This document shows positions 11,686 through 61,703 of a stretch of DNA of 64,000 nucleotides, in pieces. The notes under the pieces are model-generated. The model was not told the origin of the DNA, did no database searches, and worked only from the letters and a program-made list of their open reading frames with translations. This stretch comes from Actinomycetospora sp. TBRC 11914 (GTDB taxonomy: Bacteria; Actinomycetota; Actinomycetes; Mycobacteriales; Pseudonocardiaceae). Position 1 is the first letter of the stretch. Every line of letters starts with the position of its first letter. The translations under genes were made by a program, and so were the position numbers. The DNA lies in NCBI RefSeq assembly GCF_012933465.1, contig NZ_JABBND010000017.1, positions 106,887 to 170,886 of the forward strand. The letters are read 5' to 3'.

Positions 11686-11727
11686 TCGGCGTCATCCACT
11701 CCCGGACCCACGAAGGGGATGACGACG

Positions 11728-12987: not shown

Positions 12988-12997
12988 GCAGCTTCCG

Positions 12998-13210: not shown

Positions 13211-13490
13211 ACCTGCGCGCGGCGCACACACGGCAGCGCTGGACCGGTGGTGGTCCGGCCGCATCTGTGTGCGGCGCACGCACGGCGGTCCTGGCCGGGT
13301 GGTGGTCTGGCCGCACCTGCGCGCGGCGCACACCCGGCGGTCCCGGGCGGGCAGAGGTTCGGCCGTGCCTGCGCGTGGCACACACAGCGGTCCCGGGCCG
13401 GCCGCGTCCGGCCACACCTGCGCGCGGCACACACGTCGGCTCCGGGCCGACAGCGTTTCGTCCGCGCCGACGCGCGCACTCACACCGGCC
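13211..13490 (+). repeat. 52-bp repeat block, forward orientation (locus 2)
   Basis: Copies of the core ACCTGCGCGCGGCGCACACA begin at 13211, 13263, 13315, 13367 and 13416, with a decayed sixth near 13466. Steps are 52, 52, 52 and 49 bp. Spacers are related but diverged. All six frames give only low-complexity Arg/Ala/His peptides, so the block is non-coding. It lies in an 897-bp interval (12988-13884) between convergent genes that holds no gene. Confidence 0.88.
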
Positions 13491-45312: not shown

Positions 45313-45615
45313 TCAGGCGTTGCGTCGGAAGCTGATGGCCAGCAGGGTCGGCCGATCGGCGGGGGAGGAGGCCCCGCAGCCGGGCTGGTCGCCGTGTCCC
45401 GACGAGCACGAGCCGCAGCCGCCGGAGGCGCACGCACCGCCGAGGTCGTCGACGGTGAGCCGGCCCTTGCGCACCCAGTGGTCCACCATCGCCGAGACCT
45501 CGTCGCGGGAGACCCCGACCCGCTCGGCGAGCTGGGTGAGGCTGGCCGCCCGACCCTCCCGGACCTCGGTGAGGACCTGGCGCAGGGGGCTCGGCGCCCG
45601 CTCGGTCCCGGTCAC
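45313..45615 (-). CDS. feoC: FeoC-like regulatory protein
   Basis: A 100-aa protein. The first 60 residues form a winged helix (LRQVLTEVREGRAASLTQLA, ERVGVSRDEVSAMVDHWVRK, GRLTVDD). A Cys-rich stretch follows (ACASGGCGSCSSGHGDQPGC), a likely Fe-S cluster or metal site as in enterobacterial FeoC. The tail is extended (SSPADRPTLLAISFRRNA). FeoC modulates FeoB stability or the transporter's iron response. GTG at 45615 overlaps the feoB stop by four bases (GTGA), giving coupled translation. Third gene of feoABC. Confidence 0.88.
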   Translation of the reverse strand: MTGTERAPSPLRQVLTEVREGRAASLTQLAERVGVSRDEVSAMVDHWVRKGRLTVDDLGGACASGGCGSCSSGHGDQPGCGASSPADRPTLLAISFRRNA

Positions 45616-47858
45616 GTCAGCAGCACCCCGACCTGGAACACCGCGACCGCCAGGACCCACGCGACGAGGAGCTGCATCGCGATGCCGGCGAGCGTCGCGC
45701 GGGTGCCGATCTCGGCGCGCTGGGCCGCGACCGTGGTCATGCACGGGGTGTAGGCCAGGAGGAAGATCATGAACGCGAGCACCGCGGCGACGGTGTGCCC
45801 CCCGGACGTCCGCTCGAAGGTGGCGTGCAGGGCGGTGCCCAGCGCACCCGCCTGGTGCACGTCCGACGGTTCCTCGGCCGAGTAGGTCTGCGCGGTCGTC
45901 GCGACCACGGCCTCCTTGGCGACGAAGCCGGTCACGAGGGCCGCCGAGGCGTGCCAGTCGTCGAAGCCGGCCGGGGCGAACACCGGGGCGACGGCCCGGG
46001 AGACGCCGCCGAACACGCTCTCCGCGGGCGCCACGTGCCCGAACGACGCCGGCTCCGACGGCGCGGCCGCGGCACCCGGCATCGGGATGGAGGAGAGCAG
46101 CCACACCGCGGTCACGGTCGCGACGATGATCCCGCTCGCGGTGCGCAGGAAGGCGCGCAGCTTCTGCCACGTCTGCACGCCCATGACGCGCAGCGTGGGC
46201 CGGCGGTAGGGAGGGAGCTCGAGCAGCAGCGGGTCGTCGGCGAGATCCCGGAACGCGACGCGGCGCAGCACCCAGCCCATGCCGACGACCAGCACGATCG
46301 AGAGCACGTACATCAGGAACACCATCGTGCCGGCCTGGTCGCCGAAGAAGATCCCGGCCAGCAGGACGTACACGGTGAGTCGGGCACTGCAGGAGACGAA
46401 GGGGATGAGCAGTCCGAGCAGGAGGCGCTGCCGGGGGTTGCGGAGGATGCGGGTCCCGGCGAGCGCGGGCACGTTGCACCCGAACCCGACGATGATGGGC
46501 AGGAAGGCCTTGCCGGGGAGGCCGATGACGCGCATCAGCCGGTCCACCACGAATGCGGCCCGCGCCATGTAGCCGGAGTCCTCGAGCACCGCCAGCAGCA
46601 CGAACATGATCGCCATCAAGGGCGCGAAGCTCAGCAGCTGCCCCACCCCGGAGACCAGGCCGTCCTGCACGAGCCCGGAGAGCCACTCCGGGGCGGACAC
46701 GACGCCGAGCACCCATCCGAAGCCGTCGGACACGGGCCCGTCGAACAGGCCCTGCACTGCGTCCTGCAGGGGAGCGGCCACCGTCGTGGTGGCCTCGAAG
46801 ACGCCCCACATGACGGCGAGGAAGATCGGCAGGCCGAACCACCGCGACGTCAGCACCCGGTCGACGCGGTCGGACCACGTGGTGCGGGAGCCGCGCCGGG
46901 TGACGACCTCCCCGAGCACGTCGTGCGCCCAGGCGTAGCGCGCCTCGGCGACCCGCAGCTCGACCTCGTCCGCCGCGTCCTCGTCCGCCCCCGCCTCGTC
47001 CGCCCCCGCCTCGTCGGCCCTCGCCTCGTCGGCCCCCGCCTCGTCGCCCCCGGCCTCGTCGGCGAGGAGGTCGGCGGCGCGCCGGCGGGCGACGGCGACG
47101 GCCTCGTCGGGACCGTCCCCACCGCCCTCGAGCAGCGCGAGCGCCCGCCACCGCGCGGCCGGGTCGTCGGGTCCGGCGGCGACGAGGGCCGCCGAGACCG
47201 CGGACACCGCGTCCTCGAGGTCGGACCCCAGGGCGGCCGGGGTGACCGGCGTCGGCGCGGAGAGGGCGCGGCCCACCACGACGGCGAGCTCGTCGATGCC
47301 CTGACCGCTCCGGGGGACCACGGGCACCACCGGGACGCCGAGCGCGTCGGCGAGGGCCCCGGTGTCGAGGTCGAGGCCCCGCGAGCGGGCGACGTCGACC
47401 ATCGTCAGCGCGACCACCGTGGGGATCCCGGTGTCGGCCAGCTGGGCGGTGAGGTACAGGTTGCGGGTGAGGTTGGAGGCGTCGAGGGCGACGACGACGA
47501 GGTCGGGGCGCTCGCCCGGGGCCGCGTCGACCAGGAGCTCGCGGGTCAGCTCCTCGTCCGGTGAGTCGGGGACGAGGCTGTAGGTCCCCGGCAGGTCGAC
47601 CACCCCGACGTCGGCCTCGCCCGGGCGGCGCCACGTGCCCCGGGCGACCGACACCGTCTTGCCGGGCCAGTTGCCCACGTGCTGGCGGGCCCCGGTGAGG
47701 GCGTTGAACAGCGTCGACTTCCCGACGTTGGGGTTGCCGACGAGGACGACCCGGGCCGCACCCGCCTGCGTGGGCGCGTCGTCGGCGCCGTCGGTGCAGC
47801 ACGGCTTCTCGAGCAGCACCGGAGCGAGGCGGCGGCCGGTGAGGAGACCCTCAGCCAC
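45612..47858 (-). CDS. feoB: Ferrous iron transporter FeoB
   Basis: A 748-aa permease for Fe2+. The N-terminal G domain has the P-loop GNPNVGKST (41-49) and DLPGTYSL (G3). The membrane part includes FGLPIFLAVMWGVFEATTTV, LEDSGYMARAAFVVDRLMRV, IIVGFGCNVPALAGTRILRN and ATTAQTYS, with conserved FeoB Cys (GFGCNVPA). An acidic repetitive spacer, in which DEAG-like units recur (DEAGGDEAGADEARADEAGA), links the G domain to the permease and is unusual. GTG at 47858 follows AGGAGG and overlaps feoA by eight bases. Iron regulation is expected through the IdeR-like box before feoA. Confidence 0.95.
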   Translation of the reverse strand: MAEGLLTGRRLAPVLLEKPCCTDGADDAPTQAGAARVVLVGNPNVGKSTLFNALTGARQHVGNWPGKTVSVARGTWRRPGEADVGVVDLPGTYSLVPDSPDEELTRELLVDAAPGERPDLVVVALDASNLTRNLYLTAQLADTGIPTVVALTMVDVARSRGLDLDTGALADALGVPVVPVVPRSGQGIDELAVVVGRALSAPTPVTPAALGSDLEDAVSAVSAALVAAGPDDPAARWRALALLEGGGDGPDEAVAVARRRAADLLADEAGGDEAGADEARADEAGADEAGADEDAADEVELRVAEARYAWAHDVLGEVVTRRGSRTTWSDRVDRVLTSRWFGLPIFLAVMWGVFEATTTVAAPLQDAVQGLFDGPVSDGFGWVLGVVSAPEWLSGLVQDGLVSGVGQLLSFAPLMAIMFVLLAVLEDSGYMARAAFVVDRLMRVIGLPGKAFLPIIVGFGCNVPALAGTRILRNPRQRLLLGLLIPFVSCSARLTVYVLLAGIFFGDQAGTMVFLMYVLSIVLVVGMGWVLRRVAFRDLADDPLLLELPPYRRPTLRVMGVQTWQKLRAFLRTASGIIVATVTAVWLLSSIPMPGAAAAPSEPASFGHVAPAESVFGGVSRAVAPVFAPAGFDDWHASAALVTGFVAKEAVVATTAQTYSAEEPSDVHQAGALGTALHATFERTSGGHTVAAVLAFMIFLLAYTPCMTTVAAQRAEIGTRATLAGIAMQLLVAWVLAVAVFQVGVLLT

Positions 47859-48117
47859 GTGTCGCCTCCTGCACGCGCAGCTCCCGCGCGCCCGCGGCGT
47901 CCACGGCCACCCGGGTGTCGGCGTTGACCGCCAGCACCAACCCGCCGACGCCGCCGCGTCCGAGCACCTCGATGGTGGCGCCGGGCACGAACCCGAGCTC
48001 GGCGAGCCGCCGCCGGCGCGCGCGGTCGGCCTCGACCCGGCGCAGGACCGACACCGAGCCGACGGGGCGATCACCCAGACTGAGTTCAGCGCCGGCGCTG
48101 ACCGAGGACGTAGACAT
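47851..48117 (-). CDS. feoA: FeoA family protein
   Basis: An 88-aa SH3-like protein that supports FeoB. Visible are LSLGDRPVGSVSVLRRVEAD, then RRRRLAELGFVPGATIEVLG and GLVLAVNADTRVAVDAAGAR, all typical of FeoA. ATG at 48117 is chosen because the SH3 fold begins soon after; the frame stays open further upstream but that part would overlap the iron box and has no FeoA character. First gene of the feoABC operon, with an IdeR-like operator just before the start. Confidence 0.9.
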   Translation of the reverse strand: MSTSSVSAGAELSLGDRPVGSVSVLRRVEADRARRRRLAELGFVPGATIEVLGRGGVGGLVLAVNADTRVAVDAAGARELRVQEATRG

Positions 48118-48384: not shown

Positions 48385-49204
48385 ATGACGCTCCCCTCGC
48401 GAGGTGGTCCGCGGTCCCCGGCGTTGGCTGCTCCCGGACGCCGTGCCGGGCCGGGGACACGGTTCGACGCGACCAAGGTCCCGGAGATCACGCTGTGGTT
48501 CTGGGTCGCGAAGCTGCTCACGACCGGCATGGGCGAGACGACGTGGGACTGGTCGGCGAACACGCTGGGCCCGGTGCCGGCGATCGTCCTGAGCGGCCTC
48601 GGATTCGTGGTGGCGGTGGCACTGCAACTGCGGCAGCGCTCCTACCGCCCGTGGGCCTACTGGTTCGCGGTGCTGATGGTGAGCGTGTTCGGGACGACAT
48701 GCGCGGACGCCGTCCACGTCGTGCTCGGCCGTGCCGTACCCAGTGTCGACCGCGGCGTTCCTCGTGGCCGTGCTGGCCGCGTTCGGGATCTGGTTCCGGG
48801 TCGAGGGGACGCTCTCGATCCACAGCATCGACACCCGGCGTCGTGAGCTCTTCTACTGGACCGCGGTCATCCTGACCTTCGCGCTCGGCACCGCCCTCGG
48901 GGACCTGACCGCCACGACCTGGGGCCTCGGCTACGCCGCCTCGATCCTGCTGTTCGGCGTGCTCTTCCTGCTGCCGTTCCTGGTGCGGTGGGGGACCGGG
49001 GTCGGCGAGGTGGGCACCTTCTGGGTCGCGTACGTGATGACGCGACCGTTCGGGGCGTCGGTGGCCGACTGGGCCGGTGTCCCCCCGAGCCGGGGTGGCC
49101 TCGGGATCGGGACGGGTCCCGTGTCGGTGGTGGCGCTGTTGGCCATCGTCGCGGTCGTGCTCGGCCTGGAACGGGCGGCCCGGCGCCCGGCCGAGCCGTC
49201 GTGA
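48385..49204 (+). pseudogene. COG4705-like membrane protein, frameshifted
   Basis: Two overlapping frames together encode one protein like the intact gene at 52342-53157. The first part has TKVPEITLWFWVAKLLTTGM, GETTWDW and SVFGTTCADAVHVVLG. The second part, beginning in a different frame at 48731, has VPYPVSTAAFLVAVLAAFGI, WFRVEGTLSIHSIDTRRREL and FYWTAVILTFALGTALGDLT. One extra C in GGCC at 48727-48730 breaks the frame: deleting it joins VVLG to VPYPVST, exactly as the intact copy reads DLG-VPYTVST. It may be a true frameshift, a programmed one or a sequencing error. The start is placed at ATG 48385. Confidence 0.8.
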
Positions 49205-49207
49205 CCC

Positions 49208-50083
49208 TCAGTCGGCCGCGGTGGCGGAGACCAGGGCGCCGTTCGGGGTCTGCGGTTCTCCCGTCACGCGGTGGTGGGGGTGCGGGAGGGTGGGCAGCGG
49301 CTCCTTGCGAAGCCGCGCGGACTGCCACGCGACGCCGACGACCAGCAGGACGAGCAGCGTGGTGCTCGCGCCCAGCGTGCCCCACCCGAGGCCGCCCTCG
49401 TCGACGGGCTTGGTGAGGAAGTCGCCGCCCGCCGCACCGAGCGGGCGGGTCAGCACGAAGGCCGGCCAGAACAACAGCGCGGCCGGGAGCGCCGTCGTGT
49501 AGTGCGCACCGAGCAGGATCAGCAGGACCACCGCGACGAGGCACGCGGCGGCGAGGAACCCGAGACCGGTGTCGTCGGCGAGCCAGTCGCCGCTGGCGGT
49601 GCCCAGCGTGTTGGAGACGAGGATGGCGATCCAGTACTGGGCCTCGCCCTGCCGCGTGGCGATGTTCTCCACGTCGTAGGTCTGCCCCGTGCGCCACCAG
49701 ACCAGGAAGACCGCGGCCAGCAGCGCGAGCAGGATCGTCATGCCCCAGCCGTAGCCGATGCCGTCGGCCGACGAGCTGGCGTGGCCGAGGTAGCCGCGGT
49801 CCATGCCGTCGGAGATCTCGGTCCCGACGGCGCTGGTCGAGAGCACCACCGCCCAGAACAGCCAGGGCCGGTACCGGTCCGCGCGCAACTGGGCCGTCAC
49901 CAGGACCCCGAACACCGCCAGCAGCACCAGGGCGGTCACCAGGTAGCCGACACCCAGCGTGATCCCGAACTCGTCGCCCAAGGTCTCGCCGAGGGTCACA
50001 GCAAGGATCTTCAACACCCAGAACAGGGCGGTCACCTGCGGAAGCTTGCGCAGCACCCGCACGGTCACGTCGGCGCGTTCCAT
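49208..50083 (-). CDS. COG4705-like membrane protein (paralogue 2)
   Basis: A 291-aa polytopic protein. Repeated motifs of the family are visible: LPQVTALFWVLKILAVTLGE, TLGDEFG; IATRQGEAQYWIAILVSNTL, GTASGDWLADD; and FVLTRPLGAAGGDFLTKPVD. About seven to eight hydrophobic helices. The repeated GE(T)xGD / GTxxGD acidic pairs inside membrane segments suggest ion binding. Function unknown. ATG at 50083. It is convergent with the frameshifted paralogue and divergent from uppP. Confidence 0.82.
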   Translation of the reverse strand: MERADVTVRVLRKLPQVTALFWVLKILAVTLGETLGDEFGITLGVGYLVTALVLLAVFGVLVTAQLRADRYRPWLFWAVVLSTSAVGTEISDGMDRGYLGHASSSADGIGYGWGMTILLALLAAVFLVWWRTGQTYDVENIATRQGEAQYWIAILVSNTLGTASGDWLADDTGLGFLAAACLVAVVLLILLGAHYTTALPAALLFWPAFVLTRPLGAAGGDFLTKPVDEGGLGWGTLGASTTLLVLLVVGVAWQSARLRKEPLPTLPHPHHRVTGEPQTPNGALVSATAAD

Positions 50084-50150: not shown

Positions 50151-50337
50151 ACCAGGAGGCCCAGGTCGTCACCCGATGCGGTGATCGCGGCGGTGGCGCC
50201 GGACGAACACGGCCACCGCGGTTCTCATCGTCGTCTCACGGGCGCCGAAGACGATTCCCCGGACCATCCACCGCGCACGGGCGGGCGTGCCCCGAGCCGC
50301 CCGCCCGTGCCCGTCCGCTTGTCCGGGAGCTCGTGAC

Positions 50338-51309
50338 GTGCACCAGTTGAGTTGGCTCGAGGCCATCGTGATCGGCGCCCTGCAGGGCGTCTCGGAGCTC
50401 TTCCCGGTCTCGAGCCTGGGGCACAGCGTGCTGTTGCCGGCGGTGATCGGGGGGAGCTGGGCGCAGGACCTGGACGTGGGGGCGCCGGAATCGCCGTACC
50501 TGGCGTTCATCGTCGGCCTGCACGTGGCCACGGCCCTGGCGCTGATCGTGTTCTTCTGGCGCGACTGGGTCCGCATCGTCCGCGGGCTGGTCACCAGCAT
50601 CGTGCGCCGGGAGGTCGTGAACTCCGAGCAGCGGCTGGCGTGGCTGCTCGTGCTGGGCACCATCCCCGTCGGGATCGTCGGGCTGCTGCTCGAGCACACC
50701 TTCCGCACCGTGCTCTCCCGCCCGGTCCCCACCGCGATCTTCCTGGTGGTCAACGGCCTGGTCCTGCTCGGCGCCGAGGCGTTGCGCCGGCGTGCCGTCG
50801 ACGCCGCGCCCGTGGCCCGGGTCGGGGCGTCCACCGGGCACGGCGAGGTCGACCCGGCCGCGCGCACGGTGGTGATGCCGGCCGCGGGGGAGGCGACGTC
50901 CGGTGGGGAGGCCTCGGACCGGCGGCTGGCGGGGATGCCCGTGCTGCGCGCCGTGGGGATCGGGGCGGCGCAGATCGCGGCGCTGTGTCCGGGGATCAGC
51001 CGGTCGGGGGTGACGATGGCGACCGGGCTGCTGCGGGGGCTCTCCCACGAGGACGCCGCGCGGTTCTCGTTCCTGCTCTCGACACCGGTGATCCTGGCCG
51101 CGGGCGTGCTGAAGCTCGGGGACCTGGCGGGACCGCTCGGCGACGGGGTGCGCCCGCAGATCCTGGTGGGCAGCGTGCTCTCGTTCGTCGGCGCGTACCT
51201 CTCGGTCCGCTTCCTGACGCGGTACTTCGAGAACCGCTCGCTGCGCCCGTTCGGGATCTACTGCATCGCGGTCGGGGTCGCCTGCCTCATCTGGTTCGGC
51301 ATCCGGTGA
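50338..51309 (+). CDS. uppP: Undecaprenyl-diphosphatase UppP (BacA)
   Basis: A 323-aa membrane enzyme that recycles undecaprenyl diphosphate to the monophosphate carrier for cell-wall polymers. The active-site motifs are present: ALQGVSELFPVSSLGHSVLL near the N-terminus and LCPGISRSGVTMATGLLRGL later, with EDAARFSFLLSTPVILAAGV. It is about 50 residues longer than E. coli UppP because of a hydrophilic loop near residues 165-205 (VARVGASTGHGEVDPAARTV and on). GTG at 50338 is preceded by GGGAG and matches the family start HQLSWLEAIVIGALQG. It is coupled to the phosphoesterase gene by a four-base overlap. Confidence 0.95.
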   Translation: MHQLSWLEAIVIGALQGVSELFPVSSLGHSVLLPAVIGGSWAQDLDVGAPESPYLAFIVGLHVATALALIVFFWRDWVRIVRGLVTSIVRREVVNSEQRLAWLLVLGTIPVGIVGLLLEHTFRTVLSRPVPTAIFLVVNGLVLLGAEALRRRAVDAAPVARVGASTGHGEVDPAARTVVMPAAGEATSGGEASDRRLAGMPVLRAVGIGAAQIAALCPGISRSGVTMATGLLRGLSHEDAARFSFLLSTPVILAAGVLKLGDLAGPLGDGVRPQILVGSVLSFVGAYLSVRFLTRYFENRSLRPFGIYCIAVGVACLIWFGIR

Positions 51310-52187
51310 TCGCCTCCCGCCACGGGCGTCTCGTCGCGTCGGTGGCGCTGCTCGCCGCCGCGCTCGCGGGCTGCGCCGCTGACCCGGCGGCCGCGTCGGG
51401 ACCGATCGTGCCCTCGGTCCCGGGCGCGCTGCCCCGCCCCGACCACGTCGTGGTGGTCGTCTTCGAGAACAAGGACGACGAGCAGGTCGTCGGCTCGCCG
51501 CACGCGCCCTACCTGACGCAGCTGGCCCGCGAGGGCGCGAACCTCACCGACGCGCACGGCGAGACCCACCCGAGCCAGCCGAACTACCTGGCCCTGCTCT
51601 CCGGGTCCACCCAGGGGGTCGCGGACGACGCCTGCCCGCAGGACCTGGGTGCCTCCCCGACGCTGGCCAGCCAGCTGATCGGCGCCGGCCGGAGCTTCGC
51701 CGGGTACTCGGAGGGGTTGCCGGCCGCGGGCTTCACCGGCTGCCGGAGCCCGGACGGCCGGTACGCCCGCAAGCACGCGCCGTGGGTGGACTTCACCTCG
51801 GCCCCGCCGTCGGTGAACGTGCCGCTGAGCGCCCTCCCCGCCGACGACGCGGCCCTGCCCACCGTGGCCGTGGTCATCCCCGACATGTGCCACGACATGC
51901 ACGACTGCCCGGTCCCGACGGGGGACGCCTGGGCCCGCGACCACCTCCAGGCGTACGTGCAGTGGGCCCGCACCCACGACAGCCTCCTGGTCGTCACCTT
52001 CGACGAGGACGACGGGAGCAGCCAGAACCACATCGCGACGATGCTGGTCGGCCCGATGGTCCGCGCCGGCGACGTACCGGTGCGCGCCGACCACTACACC
52101 CTGCTGCGCACCCTCGAGGACATGTACGGCCTGCCCCCGCTCGGGGCGGCCGCACACACCGCCCCCCTCACCGGCATCTGGCGCTGA
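51306..52187 (+). CDS. Lipoprotein phosphoesterase (PF04185-like acid phosphatase)
   Basis: A 293-aa exported protein with a lipobox (LVASVALLAAALAGC, lipidated Cys at residue 23). The alkaline-phosphatase-superfamily/phospholipase-C-like core has PDHVVVVVFENKDDEQVVGS, NYLALLSGSTQGVADDACPQ, VIPDMCHDMHDCPVPTGDAW, and LLVVTFDEDDGSSQNHIATM. It resembles the bacterial acid phosphatases related to phosphoesterase family PF04185. A phospho-lipid or sugar phosphate at the outer membrane face is the likely substrate. GTG at 51306 overlaps uppP (GTGA), so both handle phosphate removal at the envelope. Confidence 0.88.
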   Translation: MIASRHGRLVASVALLAAALAGCAADPAAASGPIVPSVPGALPRPDHVVVVVFENKDDEQVVGSPHAPYLTQLAREGANLTDAHGETHPSQPNYLALLSGSTQGVADDACPQDLGASPTLASQLIGAGRSFAGYSEGLPAAGFTGCRSPDGRYARKHAPWVDFTSAPPSVNVPLSALPADDAALPTVAVVIPDMCHDMHDCPVPTGDAWARDHLQAYVQWARTHDSLLVVTFDEDDGSSQNHIATMLVGPMVRAGDVPVRADHYTLLRTLEDMYGLPPLGAAAHTAPLTGIWR

Positions 52188-52341: not shown

Positions 52342-53157
52342 ATGCCCTCGACCGGCACATCCACCCCCGCGCGGGTGTCGACGATGCTGAGCAAGGTCCC
52401 CGAGATCACCCTGATGTTCTGGGTGGCGAAGCTGCTCACCACGGGCATGGGCGAGACCACCTGGGACGCCCTGGACATCGCGTTCGACCAGTACATCGCG
52501 GTCGCGATCACCGGGACGCTGTTCGTGGCGTCGATGGTGATCCAGTTCGTGCGGCGCTCCTACAACGCGTGGGCCTACTGGTTCGCGATCGTCATGGTCA
52601 GCGTCTTCGGCACTACGGTGGCCGACCTGGTGCACAACGACCTCGGGGTGCCCTACACCGTCTCGACCTCGGTGCTGCTCGTGCTGGTCGGGCTCACCTT
52701 CGCGCTCTGGTACCGCGTCGAGGGGACGCTCTCGATCCACTCGATCACCACCCGGCGTCGGGAGGTCTTCTACTGGGCCGCGGTGCTGCTGACCTTCGCG
52801 CTGGGCACGGCGGCCGGTGACTGGACCGCCTCGACGCTGCACCTGGGGTACCTGCCCTCGGGCATCATGTTCGGGGTCCTGTTCCTGCTCCCCGCGATCG
52901 CCTACCGGTTCTTCGGGGCGAACGCGATCGCCTGCTTCTGGCTCTCCTACATCCTCACCCGCCCGTTCGGCGCCTCGTTCGCCGACTGGTTCGGTGGCCC
53001 TCCCGGCCGCGGCGGGCTCGCGCTGGGCATGGACCGGGTAGCCATCGTCATGACCGTGATCATCGTCGGCGTCATCGCCTACTTCGCGATCTCGAAGGTG
53101 GACCGCCCGGGCTCCCCGGACGCCGACACCGTCGGCCTCGGGGCGAGCGCCCGATGA
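52342..53157 (+). CDS. COG4705-like membrane protein (paralogue 3, intact)
   Basis: A 271-aa polytopic protein. The motifs are SKVPEITLMFWVAKLLTTGM-GETTWD, SVFGTTVADLVHND, WYRVEGTLSIHSITTRRREV, FALGTAAGDWTASTLHLGYL and ILTRPFGASFADWFGGPPGR. The same elements occur in the frameshifted copy at 48385. About seven membrane helices. Repeated acidic residues in GE/GTxxAD/GTxxGD positions suggest a conserved channel or ion site; function unknown. ATG at 52342 is preceded by AGGAAGG. Its stop overlaps the ATG of the large acyltransferase fusion (ATGA), tying it to that system. Confidence 0.87.
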   Translation: MPSTGTSTPARVSTMLSKVPEITLMFWVAKLLTTGMGETTWDALDIAFDQYIAVAITGTLFVASMVIQFVRRSYNAWAYWFAIVMVSVFGTTVADLVHNDLGVPYTVSTSVLLVLVGLTFALWYRVEGTLSIHSITTRRREVFYWAAVLLTFALGTAAGDWTASTLHLGYLPSGIMFGVLFLLPAIAYRFFGANAIACFWLSYILTRPFGASFADWFGGPPGRGGLALGMDRVAIVMTVIIVGVIAYFAISKVDRPGSPDADTVGLGASAR

Positions 53158-55730
53158 CGACCGCGGTCCCGACGCGGCCCGCCCCGGCGTTCGTGACGGG
53201 GCTGCGCCACCACGGCGGCCGGACCGCGCTGATCGGCGGCTCCGAGCAGCTCACCTACACGGCGCTGGCCGACCGCGTCGACGACGCCGCGGCCGCGCTG
53301 GCCGGGACCCGCCGGCTGGTCCTCGTCCCGGCCACGGCGACCGTCGCCGGGATGGTCGGCTACCTCGGGGCGCTGGCCGCCGGCCACGTGGTCCTGCTCG
53401 CCCCGGCCGGGGACCCCGACACCGCCGCCGCGCTGCGGCGCAGCTGGGACCCCGACGTCGTCCTCGGTGCGGACGCGACGGTGCTCGAGGCCCGCGACGC
53501 GTCCCGCCACGACCTGCACCCCGACCTCGCCCTGCTGATGGCGACGTCGGGCTCGACCGGCTCGCCGCGGCTGGTCCGGCTCTCGCGGGCCTCGCTGGAG
53601 GCCAACGCGGCGGCCATCGCCGACTCCCTCGACATCGAGGCGACCGACCGCGCGGTCACGACGTTGCCGTGGCACTACTGCTACGGCCTCTCCGTCGTGC
53701 ACTCCAACCTGCTGTCCGGGGCGGCGGTGCTGCTCACCGACGCCTCGGTGACCGACCCGGGCTTCTGGGAGCTGGTCGGCGAGCACCGGGCGACGAGCCT
53801 GCACGGGGTGCCGCACACGTTCGCGCTGCTCGACCGCGTGGGGTTCGACGCGATGGAGCTCCCGCACCTGCGCTACGTCACCCAGGCCGGCGGGCGGCTC
53901 GAGCCGGCGCAGGTCCGGCGGTGGGCGGGCCTCGGCGCCGCGCAGGGCTGGCGGTTCGTGGTGATGTACGGCCAGACCGAGGCCACCGCGCGGATGGCCT
54001 CCCTGCCGCCGGAGCTCGCCGCGGAGGCGCCTGAGGCGATCGGCGTGCCGATCCCGGGCGGCGCGCTGCGCGTCGACGACCCGGACGCCGACGGCGTCGG
54101 CGAGCTGGTCTACGCCGGGCCGAACGTCATGCTCGGCTACGCCCACACCGCGTCCGACCTCGCGCTCGGGCGCACCGTGACCGAGCTGCGCACCGGTGAC
54201 CTGGGCCGGCAGCGCCCGGACGGGCTCTTCCAGGTCACCGGGCGCCGCTCCCGCTTCACCAAGCCCTTCGGGGTCCGCGTCGACCTCGACGCCACCGAGA
54301 CGCTGCTCGCCGGCGAGGGGCTGATGGCGGCGGTCACCGGCGACGACATTCGGCTGGTCGTCGCCGTCGAGCGTCCCGACGACGGGTCGGACCCGACGGC
54401 GGCCGTGCTCGCGCTGCTGACGACGAGGCTGCACCTGCCCGAGGCGGTCGTCGCGGCCGTCGTCGTCGACGCCCTCCCGCGCCGCGCCAACGGCAAGCTC
54501 GACCACCCCGCGGTCGCCGCCCTCGTGCCGTCCGCCCCCCCGCGCGACAGCTGGGTGGCGCGGCTGCGGGCGCGGGCCACGCGCCGGGCGGCACCCCCGA
54601 CGGTGCGCGAGATCTTCGCCCGGACGTTCCCGGGCCAGGTCCTCGACGACGAGGCGTCGTTCGTCGACCTCGGCGGCGACTCGCTGACCTACGTGGGGGT
54701 CTCCGCCGACCTCGAGCGCGCCCTCGGGCAGCTCCCCGAGCGGTGGGACACCGTGCCGCTGGGCGAGCTCGCCTCCCGCGCCCCCGCGCCGCGCTCGCGC
54801 TGGGCGCGGGTCGAGGCGGTCGTCGTGCTCCGCGCCCTCGCGATCGTGCTGGTCGTCGGCGAGCACGACCACCTCTGGAACTGGCTCGGCGGCGCGCACC
54901 TGCTGCTCGCGATGGCCGGCTGGACCTTCTCCCGGTTCGTCCTCGCCGGACCCGACCGGGACGAGGGCGCCGGCCTCCCGCGACGGATCCTCCGCTCGAC
55001 CGCGCTCATCGCCGTGCCCAGCTCCCTGTGGATCCTGCTGCGGTCGATGATGACCAGCTCCGTGCAGCACCAGGACGCCCTGTTGCTCGGGTCGGTGTTC
55101 CACCCGCTGGTGCAGGGCTACTGGTTCGTCGACTCCCTGGTCCAGATCCTCGTCGGCGCGGCCCTGCTGTTCGCGGTCCCCGCGGTGCGCCGGTTCGAGC
55201 GCCGGCACCGCTTCGGGCTCCCCGCGCTCGTGCTGGCCGCCTCCCTCGCGCTGTGGCTGGTGCCCAGCTACGACCGGACCGTCCCCTCCGACCTCTACAG
55301 CACCCACCTCGTGCTCTGGCTGTTCGCGCTCGGCTGGATGCTGCAGCGCGCGGTGACGCCGGCGCAGCGCTGGGCCACCGCCGCGGCGACCCTGGTGCTC
55401 GTGCCCGCCTTCTTCGGGGCCGAGTACGAGCGGGCGGCGATCGTCGCGGGCGGGCTGCTGGTGCTGCTGTGCGTCGCCCGGATCGCGGTGCCCCGTCCGC
55501 TCGTCGCGCCGATCACCGCGATCGCCGGGGCGTCGCTGGGCATCTACCTGACCCACTTCGCGCTGCTGCCCCTCGCCGACGTCGGGGTGCCCCCGGCCGT
55601 GCTCGTCCTGCTCGGGCTCGCGCTGGGCATCGTCGTGTGGCGGCTCGGCACCGCCGCGGTCCGGCAGGTGGTGCGCGCGCTGGCGCGACGCGGCCTGGTC
55701 ACCGCGGCGCCGTCGACCGCGCCGTGCTGA
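53154..55730 (+). CDS. Adenylation-carrier-acyltransferase 3 fusion protein
   Basis: An 858-aa three-part protein. Residues 1 to about 465 are an ANL adenylation domain: P-loop TSGSTGSPR (131-139), YGQTEATARM, LRTGDLGRQRPDGLFQVTGR and the catalytic Lys448 in RRANGKLDH. Residues about 480-550 are a carrier domain with the phosphopantetheine Ser510 in LGGDSLTYV. From about 555 there is an acyltransferase-3 membrane domain of ten or so helices; its first helix has Arg-x10-His (RALAIVLVVGEH), as in OafA-like O-acyltransferases. It should activate a carboxylic or amino acid, load it on the carrier and pass it to an envelope sugar or lipid. This parallels DltA, DltC and an acyltransferase in one chain. 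ATG at 53154 overlaps the COG4705 gene. Confidence 0.88.
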   Translation: MTTAVPTRPAPAFVTGLRHHGGRTALIGGSEQLTYTALADRVDDAAAALAGTRRLVLVPATATVAGMVGYLGALAAGHVVLLAPAGDPDTAAALRRSWDPDVVLGADATVLEARDASRHDLHPDLALLMATSGSTGSPRLVRLSRASLEANAAAIADSLDIEATDRAVTTLPWHYCYGLSVVHSNLLSGAAVLLTDASVTDPGFWELVGEHRATSLHGVPHTFALLDRVGFDAMELPHLRYVTQAGGRLEPAQVRRWAGLGAAQGWRFVVMYGQTEATARMASLPPELAAEAPEAIGVPIPGGALRVDDPDADGVGELVYAGPNVMLGYAHTASDLALGRTVTELRTGDLGRQRPDGLFQVTGRRSRFTKPFGVRVDLDATETLLAGEGLMAAVTGDDIRLVVAVERPDDGSDPTAAVLALLTTRLHLPEAVVAAVVVDALPRRANGKLDHPAVAALVPSAPPRDSWVARLRARATRRAAPPTVREIFARTFPGQVLDDEASFVDLGGDSLTYVGVSADLERALGQLPERWDTVPLGELASRAPAPRSRWARVEAVVVLRALAIVLVVGEHDHLWNWLGGAHLLLAMAGWTFSRFVLAGPDRDEGAGLPRRILRSTALIAVPSSLWILLRSMMTSSVQHQDALLLGSVFHPLVQGYWFVDSLVQILVGAALLFAVPAVRRFERRHRFGLPALVLAASLALWLVPSYDRTVPSDLYSTHLVLWLFALGWMLQRAVTPAQRWATAAATLVLVPAFFGAEYERAAIVAGGLLVLLCVARIAVPRPLVAPITAIAGASLGIYLTHFALLPLADVGVPPAVLVLLGLALGIVVWRLGTAAVRQVVRALARRGLVTAAPSTAPC

Positions 55731-56884
55731 CGGCGCCTCCCCGGGGTCGTCGCAACGCGTGGACGGACCTGCTGCGGGTCGCGTCGCTGCTGATGGTGGT
55801 GCTCTACCACGCGACCTGGATCGGGCCGCTGGTCTACCCGCAGTTCGCCGCCCGGCAGTTCGTCTTCGGCCACCAGATCGGGGCGAGCCTGCTGCTGGTG
55901 CTCTCCGCGTCCCTCGCCGCGGCGTCGCTCGCCGATCCCGCCCGCGCGACCGTGCGGTGGTGGTTCTCGCGGATCGCGCGGCTGCTGCCCGGGTTCGTGG
56001 TCGGCACGCTCGCCGCGACCCTCGCGCTGGACTGGCTCGCCCCCGCGGGCATGTACCGGGCGGGCATCGGCGACCTGCTCGCCAACCTCGCCATGCTCTG
56101 GAACTGGAACGGCTACCACCACTGGGACTACGTCGACGGCTCGTACTGGACGCTGCCGCTGCAGCTCGCGGCGTTCACGCTGGCGCCGTGGGTGCGTCGC
56201 ACGCGCCTCGGACACGGCCGGGGCCTGCGGGTGCTGCTGTGGGCCGCGGTGCTCGTGCCGCTGGCCCAGTGGCCGCTGGCCCAGTCCGCGGGCGGCCTGT
56301 ACGACTCGGTCGTCGACGGGTGCGGCCTCTACCGCTGGCACCTGTTCGCCGCCGGCGTCGCCGCCTACCTGGTCAGCACCGGACGGCTGCGGCGCGGGCA
56401 CGGGCTCGCCCTGCTCGCGTGCTGCGTGGCCGCGCACGCCGTCCAGAACGGGTGGTGGTCGTCGACGGCGGGGCTGGTCACCGACCCCTGGTCGGTGCTC
56501 GGGGTCGGCCTCGGCATCGTCGGGCTCCTCCTCGCCGCCCGGCTGGGGGACCGGGGCGTCGAGCCGCCGCGGATCGTCGCGCGGGTCGCCCGGCGTCTCG
56601 CCGGCATCTCCTTCGGCGTGTACCTCGTGCACCAGACCCTGGGCTACGTCCTCATGCTGCGCCTGCAGGAGTGGTTCGGCGCCGGCCCCGGGGTGCAGAC
56701 GGTCGCGATGGTGGTCCAGGCGGTGCTGCTCGGCGCGGCCATGACCCGGTGGGTGGAACGGCCGGCGCACCGGGCGCTGATGCGGGCCTTCGACACGCGC
56801 CGGCGACCCCGCCGAACGACACTGTCCGTGCCGGAGCCGGCACCCGCTCCCCGCGAGCTGGTGGGCGCGTCGGCGGCGGGCTGA
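55724..56884 (+). CDS. Acyltransferase 3 family membrane protein
   Basis: A 386-aa integral membrane O-acyltransferase. The first helix has the family's Arg-x10-His (LLRVASLLMVVLYHATW). Further segments are GASLLLVLSASLAAASLADP, FSRIARLLPGFVVGTLAATL, WNWNGYHHWDYVDGSYWTLP and FGVYLVHQTLGYVLMLRLQE. It would acylate a sugar or lipid at the membrane. The C-terminal tail is short and Pro-rich. GTG at 55724 overlaps the end of the adenylation-carrier-acyltransferase gene, so the two are coupled. It may receive the same acyl group or finish a second transfer. Confidence 0.9.
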   Translation: MLTAPPRGRRNAWTDLLRVASLLMVVLYHATWIGPLVYPQFAARQFVFGHQIGASLLLVLSASLAAASLADPARATVRWWFSRIARLLPGFVVGTLAATLALDWLAPAGMYRAGIGDLLANLAMLWNWNGYHHWDYVDGSYWTLPLQLAAFTLAPWVRRTRLGHGRGLRVLLWAAVLVPLAQWPLAQSAGGLYDSVVDGCGLYRWHLFAAGVAAYLVSTGRLRRGHGLALLACCVAAHAVQNGWWSSTAGLVTDPWSVLGVGLGIVGLLLAARLGDRGVEPPRIVARVARRLAGISFGVYLVHQTLGYVLMLRLQEWFGAGPGVQTVAMVVQAVLLGAAMTRWVERPAHRALMRAFDTRRRPRRTTLSVPEPAPAPRELVGASAAG

Positions 56885-56933: not shown

Positions 56934-57608
56934 GTGTCCCCGCCCGACGTCGTCCTCCCACGCCCGGGCGCCACGGCCGGCGCCGTGCTGCTCGCCGCCG
57001 CGGTGCTCGCGGTCCTCTGGGTCGGGGTGGCCACCGGCTCGCTGCTGGCCGCCCTGGACCCGGCGATCGACGCCTGGATGGTCGCGGTCCGGCCCGCGGG
57101 CGCGGTGACGACGGCGATCGTCGCCAGCGAGGTCGGTCAGCCGGCGGTCGTGATCGGGGTCCTCGTGGTGGTCGCGGGCGCGCTCGGGTGGCGGTCCCGG
57201 TCCTGGGCGCCGGTCGTGATCGCGGCGGGCGGGCTGGTGCTGCTCGGCCTGGCCGACCACGGCGTCAAGGCGATCGTCGCCCGGCCCCGCCCGCCCCTGG
57301 TGTGGCACGCGATGCCGGCCCAGGGGCTGTCGTTCCCGTCCGGCCACTCGCTCTGGTCGGCGGGGACGATGCTGCTGATCGTGGTGCTGGTCGGGCCCGT
57401 CCGGCGGCGCTGGGTCGTGGTGGCGGCCGCCGTGCTCGTCGTCGTGGTCGTCAGCGGGTCGCGCGTCGTGGCCGGCGTGCACTATCCCAGTGACGTCCTC
57501 GCCGGCTGGACCCTCGCCGTCGTCGCGGACGGGCTCGTCCTGCTCGCGGCCGGGGCCGTCACCCGTCGGGTGTCCCGGGTCCGGCCGCGCGAGCAGCCAC
57601 GGTCCTAA
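56934..57608 (+). CDS. PAP2 family lipid phosphatase
   Basis: A 224-aa membrane phosphatase of the PAP2 type. The three signature motifs are KAIVARPRPPL (K-x6-RP), FPSGHSLWSAG (PSGH) and SRVVAGVHYPSDVLAG (SR-x5-H-x3-D). About six helices. It would dephosphorylate a lipid pyrophosphate such as phosphatidylglycerophosphate or undecaprenyl diphosphate. GTG at 56934 begins the predicted cytosolic start. It lies 49 bp after the acyltransferase and belongs to the same rightward run of envelope genes. Confidence 0.93.
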   Translation: MSPPDVVLPRPGATAGAVLLAAAVLAVLWVGVATGSLLAALDPAIDAWMVAVRPAGAVTTAIVASEVGQPAVVIGVLVVVAGALGWRSRSWAPVVIAAGGLVLLGLADHGVKAIVARPRPPLVWHAMPAQGLSFPSGHSLWSAGTMLLIVVLVGPVRRRWVVVAAAVLVVVVVSGSRVVAGVHYPSDVLAGWTLAVVADGLVLLAAGAVTRRVSRVRPREQPRS

Positions 57609-57617: not shown

Positions 57618-58652
57618 ATGTCCTCGGTGATGGAGGGTGGCGGGCACTACAACGCCCACGCGTCGGCCCAGGCGGCCGCCGCCACGTTCGGCCTCGACGT
57701 CGTCGCCGCGGCCGCGGCGACCGCTCCCGTCGGTCCGGGCAGCGCCGTCGTCGTGGCCGACTACGGCGCCTCGGAGGGCCGGAACTCGCTGGCGCCCGTC
57801 GGCGTCGTCGTCGACGCCGTCCGGCGGGTCCACGGCGAGCAGCAGCCGGTGTGGGTGTTCCACACCGACCTGCCGGACAACGACTTCGCGTCGCTCTTCC
57901 GGACCGTCGCGGACGACCCCCACAGCTACCGGCGGCCCGGCGTGTACCCGGCGGCGGTCGGCGGCTCCTTCTACGAGCAGCTGTTCCCGGCCGGGTCGGT
58001 CGGTCTGGGCTGGAGCTCGATCGCCGTGCACTGGCTCAGCGCGGCACCCGGCCCGCTCGACGGGTTCTGGTTCACGACCGCGACCGCGGTCCAGTACGAG
58101 GTCTGGGCCCGGGCGGGCGCGGCCGACTGGTCGGCCTTCCTGACGGCGAGGGCCGCCGAGATGCTGCCCGGCGCCCGGCTCGTGGTCGTCGTGGGCGCCG
58201 CCCACGGCGACGGACCCACCCGCCGGTCCGGCGCCGAACGGTCCATGGACGAGGTCGCCCGCGGCGTGCAGGCCCTCGTCGAGCGCGGCCTCGTCACCGA
58301 CGCCGAACGGGCCGCGATGGTGATACCGGCGTGGTACCGCACCGAGGCCGAGTGGCGAGCCCCGTTCGGCGCCGGGTCCGACCTGGTGCTCGAGCAGCTC
58401 GAGCTCGTCGACATCGGCGACCCGCTGTGGCGCCAGACCCGCGACGACCCCGCCGCCTACCCCGCCACCGTCGCCGCCGCTCTCCGGGTGTCGTTCGGCC
58501 CGTCGCTGCTGGCCGGGCTCGACCCGGACCGGCGCGCGACGGTCGCCGCCGAGCTCTTCGACGGGCACCTCGCCCGGGCGATCGCCGCGCAGCCGCCCGA
58601 GCCCTGGTTCGACTGGCGGCTCGCCGTCCTGGAGATCGCCAAGCCCCGGTGA
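57618..58652 (+). CDS. SABATH-type SAM-dependent carboxyl methyltransferase
   Basis: A 344-aa methyltransferase like plant salicylate/jasmonate/IAA carboxyl methyltransferases (PF03492). The hallmark motifs are in order: MEGGGHYNAHASAQ, VVADYGASEGRNSLAPVGVV, WVFHTDLPDNDFASLF, VYPAAVGGSFYEQLFPAGSV and LGWSSIAVHWLSAAPGPLDG. The SAM and substrate-binding residues lie in these blocks. It would turn a free carboxylate into its methyl ester. Bacterial members exist but are much less studied than those of plants. ATG at 57618 has no ribosome site but sits six bases after a -10, consistent with leaderless translation. No acid-making genes are adjacent apart from the acyl-activating fusion. Confidence 0.9.
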   Translation: MSSVMEGGGHYNAHASAQAAAATFGLDVVAAAAATAPVGPGSAVVVADYGASEGRNSLAPVGVVVDAVRRVHGEQQPVWVFHTDLPDNDFASLFRTVADDPHSYRRPGVYPAAVGGSFYEQLFPAGSVGLGWSSIAVHWLSAAPGPLDGFWFTTATAVQYEVWARAGAADWSAFLTARAAEMLPGARLVVVVGAAHGDGPTRRSGAERSMDEVARGVQALVERGLVTDAERAAMVIPAWYRTEAEWRAPFGAGSDLVLEQLELVDIGDPLWRQTRDDPAAYPATVAAALRVSFGPSLLAGLDPDRRATVAAELFDGHLARAIAAQPPEPWFDWRLAVLEIAKPR

Positions 58653-58852: not shown

Positions 58853-60040
58853 GTGTCACCGTCGCTCGCGCTCGACGTCCCGCAGCGGCGGCTCGTGCCG
58901 CTCGTCGTGGCAGGGTCGTCGGGAGGCAGCGTGCCGCTCGCCTTGGGCGGACGTGTCCTGGTCGTCAGCGCGACCGTCGGCCAGGGCCACGAAGGGGCGG
59001 CCCGTGAACTGGCAGGTCGGCTGCGCGCTCGCGGCGTCGACGTCACGGTCCGCGATCACCTCGACGCCCTGCCCGGCGTCGCCCGCCGCATCCTGCGTGA
59101 CCTCTATCAGCCGACGGTGCAGTACGCCCCCGCGCTGTTCGACACGCTCTTCCACGGACTCGAGCACGACGGGCCGCTCCGGCGGACCGTCGACGCCGTG
59201 TGCCGGTGGGCCGAACCGGAGGTCGAGCGCTGGGCCGCGGAAGCCGACGTCGTCGTCACCACCTACCCGCTCGCCGGGCAGACCCTCGGCGCCCTGCGCG
59301 AGCAGGGCCGCATCACGGTCCCGACGATGACGTACCTGACCGACCCCGCCGCCCACGCGACCTGGTGCCATCCCGCCGTCGACCACCACCTGACCGTCAC
59401 GCGGGCCACCGCCCTGGACGCCCGGCGCTACGGCGTCCGCTCCCGGGCCGTCGGGCCGCTGTGCTCGCCGGCGTTCACGCATCCCGGCGAGACCCGCGGG
59501 GCGGTGCGCGCCGGGCTCGGCCTGCCCGCGGAAGCGCCGGTCGCGCTGATCAGCGCCGGGTCGCTCGGGATGGGCGCGGTCCCGCAGACGGTGCGCGACC
59601 TCCTCACCCATCCGCGGCTGCGGGTCGTGGTGCTCTGCGGACGCAACGCCGGGCTGCGCCGGCGCCTCGGGCGCGACCCGCGGGTCGTGGCGCTCGGGTG
59701 GCGCGACGACGTGGCCGCCCTGATGGGGGCCGCCGACGTGCTGGTCCACAACGCCGGCGGGCTCTCCCTGACCGAGGCCCTCGCGGCGGGGCTCCCCGCG
59801 ATCACCTACCGGCCCATCGCCGGTCACGGCCGCGCGAACGCCGCGGTGCTCGACCGCGCGGGGATCGCGCCGTGGCCGCACGGGGCGGCCGAGCTCGTCC
59901 ACGCCGTGGACACCGTGATCGGCGAGCCGGGCCGCCGTCGCCGGCGGTGGTGGCCGGCCGGCGCCGACCCGGCGGCCGCCGTCCAGGACGTGCTCGCGGG
60001 GCAGCGCCCCGCGCCCGCCCCGACGGGCGCCGCGTCGTGA
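58853..60040 (+). CDS. GT28-like glycosyltransferase (MGDG synthase/MurG fold)
   Basis: A 395-aa GT-B glycosyltransferase. The N-terminal domain has RVLVVSATVGQGHEGAAREL (the GQGH loop of MGDG synthase-like enzymes), VVTTYPLAGQTLGALREQGR and MTYLTDPAAHATW. The C-terminal donor domain has VALISAGSLGMGAVPQTVRD, LGWRDDVAALMGAADVLVHN and AGGLSLTEALAAGLPAITYR with the donor-binding Glu. It likely transfers a sugar to a lipid acceptor. GTG at 58853 follows GGAGG. It starts a run of three overlapping genes (glycosyltransferase, EamA-like transporter, FetB-like permease). Confidence 0.9.
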   Translation: MSPSLALDVPQRRLVPLVVAGSSGGSVPLALGGRVLVVSATVGQGHEGAARELAGRLRARGVDVTVRDHLDALPGVARRILRDLYQPTVQYAPALFDTLFHGLEHDGPLRRTVDAVCRWAEPEVERWAAEADVVVTTYPLAGQTLGALREQGRITVPTMTYLTDPAAHATWCHPAVDHHLTVTRATALDARRYGVRSRAVGPLCSPAFTHPGETRGAVRAGLGLPAEAPVALISAGSLGMGAVPQTVRDLLTHPRLRVVVLCGRNAGLRRRLGRDPRVVALGWRDDVAALMGAADVLVHNAGGLSLTEALAAGLPAITYRPIAGHGRANAAVLDRAGIAPWPHGAAELVHAVDTVIGEPGRRRRRWWPAGADPAAAVQDVLAGQRPAPAPTGAAS

Positions 60041-60939
60041 GCGGCTCGCTGCCCGCGGCACTGTGCGCCGTCGCGGCCGCGAGCGTGCTCGGGACGGCGA
60101 CGGTCGCGCAGCGGCGGGGGATGGACGGCGACGGGTCGGGCCACCTGGTCGCCGGCCTGGTGCGCAGCCGCTGGTGGTGGGCCGGGACGGCCGCCTCCGT
60201 GGGCGGGCTGGGCCTGCAGTTCCTCGCCCTGGCGATCGGCCCGCTGATCGTGGTGCAGACGGTCATGGCGGTGAGCATCGTGGTCACCGCACTGGCCGAG
60301 GCGGTCCTCCTGCGACGACGGCCCACGCCTCGCCGGTGGGCGGGCATGGCCCTCACCGCCGCGGGCCTGGCCGTCGTCCTGCTCGCCCTGGCCCCGAGCG
60401 CCTCCTCGCTCGTCGTGGTCCCGTCGGCGACGTCGATCATCGCCGTCACCGCGGGCGCGCTCGTCGTCGCGGCGGTCGCGGCATGGCACGCCCGTGTCGC
60501 CGCGGCCGGCGGCCTCGCGCTCGCCGCGGCCACCGGTCTCGGGTACGGCGTCACCGCGATCGCGCAGAAGACCGTCGGTGCCGAGCTCGCGCACGGCCCC
60601 GTCGCCGTGCTCGTCCATCCCGCCCTGTGGGCGGCGCTCACCGTCGGACCGCTCTCGGTCCTGCTGAGCCAGCACGCCCTGCGCCGGGCCCGGTCGGTCG
60701 CCACGGCCGTCTCCGTCATCGTCGTGATCGACCCGCTCGTCGGGCTGCTTGCCGGGACGGTGTGGTTCGGCGAGCACGTGGTCCTGACCCCGTGGTCGGC
60801 GTCCGCCGCGGTCGCGGCCGGCGTTGCGGTCGTCATGGGGATCGTGCTCAGCCACACCGAGGGTCGGCCACCCGAGACGGGCCGGGGCTCCTCCGGTGGG
60901 GTGCCCGCGCCGGGCTGGGCGGCTCGAGCCGTCGCGTGA
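60037..60939 (+). CDS. DMT/EamA-like membrane transporter
   Basis: A 300-aa protein with nine to ten helices: LCAVAAASVLGTATVAQRRG, LQFLALAIGPLIVVQTVMAV, SIVVTALAEAVLLRRRPTPR and, in the second half, SVIVVIDPLVGLLAGTVWFG. It is of the same branch as the protein at 43149-44051. The neighbourhood (glycosyltransferase in front, FetB after) suggests a lipid-linked or small-molecule substrate, but it cannot be named. GTG at 60037 overlaps the previous stop (GTGA) and its own stop overlaps the next start the same way. Confidence 0.85.
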   Translation: MSGSLPAALCAVAAASVLGTATVAQRRGMDGDGSGHLVAGLVRSRWWWAGTAASVGGLGLQFLALAIGPLIVVQTVMAVSIVVTALAEAVLLRRRPTPRRWAGMALTAAGLAVVLLALAPSASSLVVVPSATSIIAVTAGALVVAAVAAWHARVAAAGGLALAAATGLGYGVTAIAQKTVGAELAHGPVAVLVHPALWAALTVGPLSVLLSQHALRRARSVATAVSVIVVIDPLVGLLAGTVWFGEHVVLTPWSASAAVAAGVAVVMGIVLSHTEGRPPETGRGSSGGVPAPGWAARAVA

Positions 60940-61703
60940 GCGGCGCCTCCGTCACCGTCGGGTGGGGCCTGGCCGCCGCCCTGGTCCTGCTCGTCGGCGT
61001 CGCGGTGACGGTCTCGCTCGTCGGACGGTTCGGGATCTCGAGGACCCTCGTGATCGCCGCGGCCCGGGCCGTGGTCCAGCTCGCGCTGGTCGCGAGCGTC
61101 ATCGTGGCCGTCGTGCGGTCGTGGTGGCTCACCGCCGCGTTCGTCCTCGTCATGCTGGCCGTCGCGTCCTGGACGTCGGCCCGGCGGATGACCCCGAGCC
61201 GTAGCGGGGTGCTCGCGGCGGTCGCCATCACGGCGGGGGTGGTCCCCGTGCTCGCGGTGACTCTGCTCAGCGGTGCGGTGCCCCTCACGGGCATCTCGGT
61301 CGTGCCCGTGGCCGGCATCGTCATCGGGGGTGCGATGACCGCGACGTCCCAGGGCGGCCGCCGCGCGCTCGACGACCTCGACGCCCACCGCGACCAGTAC
61401 GAAGCAGGCCTCGCCCTCGGCGGCCGCCGACGCGACGCCGCGATGCTCGTGTGCCGCCCGGCCGCGACCCAGGCCCTGGTGCCGCCGATGGACCAGACCC
61501 GCACCGTCGGGCTGGTCACCCTGCCCGGGGCCTTCGTCGGCGTGCTGATCGGCAGCGGCAACCCGGTGCAGGCCGCGGCGGCGCAGGTGCTCGTCCTCAT
61601 CGGCCTGCTCGCCGCCGAGTCCGTCGCGGTCGCGGTCGTCCTCGAGCTCGTCGCCCGCGGCGCGATCACCCGCGCACCCGCGCGGTCGGCGTCGGCCGGC
61701 TGA
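60936..61703 (+). CDS. FetB-like (UPF0014) ABC transporter permease
   Basis: A 255-aa permease like E. coli FetB (YbbM, 259 aa), which with the ATPase FetA exports iron or a related substrate. Typical are RFGISRTLVIAAARAVVQLA, GAMTATSQGGRRALDDLDAH, and QTRTVGLVTLPGAFVGVLIG-SGNP. About seven helices. No FetA-type ATPase gene is adjacent in this window, so the partner must be elsewhere or the permease acts alone. GTG at 60936 overlaps the transporter gene (GTGA). Last gene of the glycosyltransferase operon, followed by a two-component system. Confidence 0.9.
   Translation: MSGASVTVGWGLAAALVLLVGVAVTVSLVGRFGISRTLVIAAARAVVQLALVASVIVAVVRSWWLTAAFVLVMLAVASWTSARRMTPSRSGVLAAVAITAGVVPVLAVTLLSGAVPLTGISVVPVAGIVIGGAMTATSQGGRRALDDLDAHRDQYEAGLALGGRRRDAAMLVCRPAATQALVPPMDQTRTVGLVTLPGAFVGVLIGSGNPVQAAAAQVLVLIGLLAAESVAVAVVLELVARGAITRAPARSASAG

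Follow-up and report, generated by a model that had tools for sequence, protein, structure and literature searches.

The gene considered here lies in a 64,000-nucleotide stretch of the Actinomycetospora sp. TBRC 11914 genome (contig NZ_JABBND010000017.1, positions 106,887 to 170,886; hereafter the window, numbered from its first nucleotide). It encodes a single polypeptide that combines an adenylation (A) domain, a carrier domain and a membrane acyltransferase domain of the AT3 type, and it belongs to a family of such fusions whose genomic association with iron uptake is our main subject.

A single-chain adenylation-carrier-acyltransferase protein

The gene and its approximate domain limits are as follows.

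53154..55730, plus strand: A-carrier-AT3 fusion, 858 residues, open reading frame (ORF) open and intact
Residues ~1-460: A domain, with K448
Residues ~480-545: carrier domain, with S510
Residues ~550-845: AT3 domain, with R560 and H571

In a Pfam search the AMP-binding domain (PF00501, 2.3e-40) and the PP-binding domain (PF00550, 24.3 bits against a cut-off of 20.8) score above their cut-offs. The membrane part matches Acyl_transf_3 (PF01757) at 30.2 bits, just below the cut-off of 31, and 102 of the 120 listed homologs, counted by eye, carry a precomputed PF01757 annotation. The same search found no MBOAT match in the membrane part and no condensation domain within the protein. Residues K448, S510, R560, H571 and R280 are invariant in all 119 rows of an alignment of actinobacterial fusions of at least 700 residues, which includes a few duplicates. 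K448 is the A10 lysine of the A-domain motif nomenclature, and R560-x10-H571 forms the R/K-x10-H motif in the first membrane helix of the AT3 part. The sequence bears out the domains and catalytic residues described in the first-pass annotation, namely an ANL domain with its catalytic lysine, a carrier with its pantetheine serine and an Arg-x10-His membrane enzyme on one chain, the last being AT3 and not MBOAT. An AlphaFold2 model built with 18 homologs as input has a mean predicted local distance difference test score (pLDDT) of 85.7 and a predicted template-modeling score of 0.52; the fold-search rows cover residues 5-459 only, and the C-terminal half is modeled as helical.

Distribution of the fusion

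Scoring of 7994 candidates at a threshold of E<=0.001 gave 3731 matching proteins, and the architecture is therefore not a product of chance. Among 246 genomes drawn evenly from the class Actinomycetes (the class sample), 43 match at E<=1e-60; three of these (G178, G148 and G097) have an A domain only and were excluded, so that the survey of architecture across actinobacteria proposed in the first-pass annotation finds the fusion in 40 genomes. The fusion is also found on plasmids, with 84 matching records at E<=1e-60 that come mostly from Rhizobium and Leisingera, and in the five plasmid records examined it is annotated only as "AMP-binding protein." The plasmid copies of Rhizobium etli (869 residues) and Leisingera aquaemixtae (846 residues) keep K448, S510, R560 and H571, carry Ser 176 and Val 244, and lack a His at position 582; alphaproteobacterial fusions with Ser 176 and Val 244 perhaps use another acid. 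Two alphaproteobacterial A-carrier-AT3 fusions were located in fetched loci.

L181, 7641-10250: A-carrier-AT3 fusion
L182, 7659-10199: A-carrier-AT3 fusion

A full-text literature search, with subscription journals mostly outside its scope, found no description of this three-domain order, in agreement with the first-pass annotation, which could match the system to none described. The sections consulted of a paper on the Streptomyces coelicolor DmdR1 regulon (PMC12161575) mention no such fusion gene.

Linkage to ferric-iron importers and iron-box-like sites

Neighboring genes were compared in the best 80 of at least 590 contig matches, a set that is ranked by score rather than random and that shares species with the class sample; genes in the fetched loci were called by our own simple codon-usage script and then clustered. 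In 51 of the 80 loci (window counted), the fusion has a gene for an iron solute-binding protein no more than four genes away, and a cluster of two-domain permeases is represented in 48, L054 not being callable in this count. Outside this importer cassette, the next most common neighbor cluster occurs in 15 loci at scattered positions, and no siderophore genes are among the conserved neighbors. The fusion and the importer genes form one operon with 4-nucleotide overlaps in several loci. For L016, the nearest relatives of the binding protein are Serratia SfuA and Yersinia YfuA (PDB 1xvy, 2.4e-115), the PDB relatives being ferric-binding proteins of the SfuA, YfuA and FbpA types, and a second subtype, taken from L019, matched 28 PDB sequences, all with iron in their names except SfuA, YfuA and 6g7n. 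In the class sample, an SfuA-type protein (E<=1e-40) is encoded by 39 of the 40 fusion genomes and by 25 of the 206 others (Fisher value 4e-27, which ignores kinship), and in 32 of the 40 no more than 8 kb separates its gene from the fusion. Genes labeled "iron ABC transporter" in RefSeq also adjoin the fusion on plasmids of Rhodococcus opacus B4 and Mycolicibacterium chubuense NBB4. As a separate observation, a contig-end fragment at 6589-7143 of L045, by eye an iron solute-binding protein, directly follows a fusion that was scored as importer-less.

Upstream regions were scored against what we take to be the DtxR/IdeR consensus, TWAGGTWAGSCTWACCTWA, with at least 15 of 19 positions matching within 300 nucleotides upstream. 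Such sites precede the fusion in 46 of 79 loci and the binding-protein gene in 45 of 51, compared with 19 of 1064 other genes, some of the 19 sharing the intergenic stretch of the importer-fusion cassette. In the class sample, 33 of the 36 loci that could be analyzed have a site ahead of the fusion or of sfuA (L166, L177 and L178 have none; L159, L170 and L179 were not callable), compared with 0 of 720 letter-shuffled upstream sets. Leaving out the window, seven fusions of the class sample have no importer nearby, and each of them is preceded by a site at -21 to -108 (L148, one of the seven, is on a short contig); the site is therefore not just a companion of the importer. Across 120 loci, a set that also holds a few duplicates (L096 repeats L015, for example), importer and site occur together in 63, the importer only in 6 and the site only in 27. 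The family sits behind putative DtxR/IdeR-like iron-box sites, and we regard its linkage to iron as close to certain.

Predicted substrate

The first-pass annotation had compared the protein with the D-alanylation system and proposed predicting specificity from the A-domain pocket. In the position of the amino-group-binding Asp of GrsA and VinN stands C176, and this residue is Cys in 113, Ser in 5 and Val in 1 of the 119 aligned fusions. Available sections of one study describe the Asp as binding the amino group in GrsA and VinN (PMC11253843). Because this Asp is replaced, loading of an amino acid such as D-alanine appears unlikely, and an acid without an amino group is the expected substrate. 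The solved A-domain relatives that are closest by sequence or fold are VinN, PltF, oxalate-CoA ligase and feruloyl-CoA synthetase, at about 20-26% identity in structural alignments, a distance at which specificity is not transferable.

The window copy and its clade

The genes around the window copy are listed in order.

45612..48054, minus strand: feoA-feoB, ferrous iron transporter, ~5 kb from the fusion
49208..50083, minus strand: second DUF347 protein, adjoining uppP
50287..51309, plus strand: uppP, undecaprenyl-diphosphate phosphatase, start uncertain (50287 or 50338)
51306..52187, plus strand: phosphoesterase-family protein (PF04185), 4-nucleotide overlap with uppP
52342..53157, plus strand: DUF347/COG4705 membrane protein, 271 residues, 4-nucleotide overlap with the ATG of the fusion
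55724..56884, plus strand: second, stand-alone AT3 gene, 386 residues, GTG start, PF01757 at 8e-25
56934..57608, plus strand: PAP2-family phosphatase (Pfam)
58853..60040, plus strand: MGDG-synthase-like glycosyltransferase, MGDG_synth above cut-off

The second AT3 gene begins 7 nucleotides inside the end of the fusion, and overlaps of 4 and 7 nucleotides bear out the coupling of the fusion to the COG4705 gene and to this second AT3. L095 and L100 likewise have a second AT3 close to the fusion, separated from it by one additional alpha/beta-hydrolase gene. The upstream DUF347 protein has a predicted model with eight helices and a pLDDT of 90.2. Against diglucosyl-diacylglycerol synthase the glycosyltransferase reaches 113.9 of 500 bits, far below the cut-off, and it is not a conserved neighbor across the family. 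Proximity of uppP, PAP2 and the glycosyltransferase stands as first annotated; the functional weight placed on it does not, the family-conserved neighbors being the ferric ABC importer and the iron-box-like site. A weak site (14/19) lies at 48124, about 70 nucleotides upstream of feoA. With the gene at 52342-53157, three DUF347 ORFs fall inside 5 kb. The shortest, 48743-49204 on the plus strand, lies end to end with the full DUF347 gene on the minus strand.

A tree of 116 fusions, 113 of them different (L096, L123, L073 and L100 are omitted), places the window copy in a clade of five rows with a Shimodaira-Hasegawa-like approximate likelihood ratio test (SH-aLRT) value of 100. The sister of this clade, also at SH-aLRT 100, is L099, a same-genus fusion that adjoins SfuABC, and the clade is nested inside the mostly iron-linked family. 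In each of the clade's five non-truncated loci, the window included, a DUF347 gene immediately precedes the fusion, and seven pairs of metagenome matches on contigs of the same length suggest that it accompanies fusions of 55-60% identity there too. The simplest reading is that the clade lost the box and the importer and gained DUF347 as a partner, although the tree, which is quick and midpoint-rooted, does not fix gain versus loss. Catalytic and pocket residues in the clade are those of the iron-linked members in the 119-row alignment, and the window copy is taken to have the same chemistry as the family.

No iron-box-like site with up to three mismatches occurs in the whole window; the genome of the window has eight such places, compared with none in a backwards control, together with a strong iron-dependent-repressor match and one ACPS/phosphopantetheinyl-transferase match. 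Its SfuABC genes lie behind a weak 14/19 site. Across the genus, the fusion is present in 7 of 18 genomes and an SfuA match in 9 of 18, and the ferric importer exists without the fusion in the genus-mates L111-L114. In these four loci and in L110, where SfuABC of the genome of the window occupies 9681-13358, sites of 14-16/19 stand in front of SfuABC. In L095, from the same genus, an EfeUO-like pair (an FTR1 permease gene and an imelysin/cupredoxin gene) is divergent from the DUF347-fusion operon, with a 15/19 site in front of the FTR1 gene. With the window, this makes two of the five clade loci with feoAB or EfeUO-like genes near the fusion; the three others have no iron gene among their annotated neighbors. 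Parts of a Frankia study report uppP and DUF347 in lead-induced operons, for which metal export and precipitation were proposed (PMC4531530), and therefore the neighbors of the window copy can also be read as metal handling. These metal signs fit a metal role without proving one, and the window copy is likely, on gene context, to be linked to iron or another metal.

Proposed function and alternatives

We favor, at a probability of roughly 0.5, the explanation that the fusion is a single-chain enzyme of an importer- and box-linked family that activates a non-amino acid and yields an iron-binding product for the importer. Under iron starvation, the A domain would adenylate a carboxylic acid without an amino group and would likely load it onto its own fused carrier, the AT3 domain would likely pass it to an outward-facing acceptor, and the resulting iron-binding product would serve the SfuABC/FbpABC-type ferric importer. 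The domains and their catalytic residues, the importer linkage, the box-like sites and the nesting of the window copy are features of the sequences themselves, from which we infer the order of transfer, its direction across the membrane and the binding of iron by the product; outward transfer to give an iron-binding product is proposed solely because of the importer and box linkage. A narrower version is more tentative. It holds that a polar non-amino acid is bonded to an acceptor at the outer face, a carrier thioester replacing acyl-coenzyme A (acyl-CoA) at the AT3 domain, with synthesis and export in one step and the ferric-binding lipoprotein taking iron directly. If correct, the proposal would add a biosynthetic enzyme to SfuABC-type iron uptake, which is usually seen as chelator-independent. 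It would also provide the first AT3 enzyme that draws on a carrier and not on CoA, encoded by roughly one sixth of the genomes sampled from the class, and would open a widespread gene of unexplained role to direct testing.

Several observations weigh against this proposal. Neither importer nor box is found in 24 of the 120 loci. Of the positions that we take to be ferric ligands of the binding proteins, the Tyr pair is kept in 51 of 51, His in 21 and Glu in 16, and retention is thus partial. Only 36 of 119 fusions have the AT3 RxxR motif in exact form. The two alphaproteobacterial fusions examined have no iron genes annotated alongside and no iron box. Upstream of the window copy the best box score is 10/19, SfuABC of its genome is on contig C1 and the window on C9, and no SfuA match accompanies the fusion in the clade members G002, G005, G006 and G013. 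For known AT3 enzymes, acyl-CoA and not a carrier protein is favored as donor in the relevant passages of a review (PMC9558356), and the fused carrier would therefore be a new donor route. The strongest counter-evidence comes from two unfused relatives of the A domain, possibly cousins of the fused form.

L191, 7785-9412: unfused A-domain relative, 42% identity
L192, 6372-8774: unfused A-domain relative, 44% identity

Both adjoin small carrier-like proteins; a Pfam match, at the cut-off, is seen only for the one in L192. Around the L192 relative are a sugar aminotransferase and LuxE/LuxC genes, around that of L191 dehydratase-like genes, and around both, by eye, glycosyltransferases. These polysaccharide-type clusters suit acylation of a glycan, and on their account we rate the chance of an iron-binding product at about one half.

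They are also why envelope O-acylation of a surface glycan or glycolipid, the role suggested in the first-pass annotation, stays a live rival, if an improbable one. The system would then be Dlt-like with a different acid, and iron starvation would merely induce it; most characterized AT3 enzymes acylate surface sugars, according to the sections consulted of the AT3 review (PMC9558356), and uppP, PAP2 and the lipid-type glycosyltransferase lie near the window copy. The Dlt-like logic of that suggestion holds, but the conserved neighbor of the family is a ferric importer and not a set of glycan genes, and monocistronic-looking fusions retain the iron box without the importer. Less probable again is a re-use of the enzyme for metal tolerance in the window's clade, in which it would act with DUF347 and UppP to alter the cell surface or a secreted product, such that toxic metals become bound outside the cell, with no role in iron uptake. 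Constant DUF347 upstream of the clade's fusions, which have neither iron box nor adjoining SfuABC, and the lead-induced Frankia operons, as far as the available text describes them (PMC4531530), speak for it; the clade's unchanged catalytic and pocket residues and the feoAB or EfeUO-like genes in two of its five loci speak against it. We consider it very improbable that the AT3 domain exports rather than transfers, a chelating acid handed over by the A domain and carrier leaving the cell in free form. In VanT-type fusions the AT3 part has been proposed to act as a transporter, and the conserved neighbor clusters of the fusion hold no exporter gene, yet the Arg-x10-His motif, linked by the reviewers to acyl-donor binding in the passages at hand (PMC9558356 for both points), is invariant in 119 of 119.

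Comparison with known systems

The fusion resembles DltA-DltC-DltB, as the first-pass annotation held, in its sequence of adenylation, carrier loading and membrane acyltransferase, here with all three domains on one chain rather than three. It differs in having AT3 instead of MBOAT, in lacking the amino-binding Asp and in its linkage to iron genes and not teichoic acid genes. With OafA/OafB and OatA it shares Arg-x10-His in a membrane part of the PF01757 type, at a score just below the cut-off in the window copy; those enzymes have a C-terminal SGNH domain in place of the N-terminal A domain and carrier; the AT3 members studied also use acyl-CoA, unlike the carrier route proposed here, in the covered sections of the review (PMC9558356). 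The siderophore starter enzymes DhbE and EntE, with their aryl carriers, activate a non-amino acid onto a carrier in an iron-regulated context, as predicted for the fusion. The fusion differs from them in lacking a condensation domain, in having a membrane AT3 domain instead and in having C176 where DhbE has Asn. With nonribosomal peptide siderophore synthetases it shares adenylation and carrier domains that score above the PF00501 and PF00550 cut-offs. Across the family the conserved partner operon is SfuABC/FbpABC, though not beside the window copy; such importers are usually described without a biosynthetic enzyme, and in the fusion family a fourth gene is attached.

Other genes downstream of the fusion

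Nine nucleotides after the PAP2 gene and in the same direction, 57618-58652 (plus strand) encodes an S-adenosylmethionine-dependent carboxyl methyltransferase (PF03492), a candidate that could act on the carboxylic acid of the fusion system. Further along, 60037-61703 (plus strand) encodes a membrane protein whose EamA match is below threshold and, after it, a UPF0014 protein, which we take to be FetB-like and which is possibly another metal gene.
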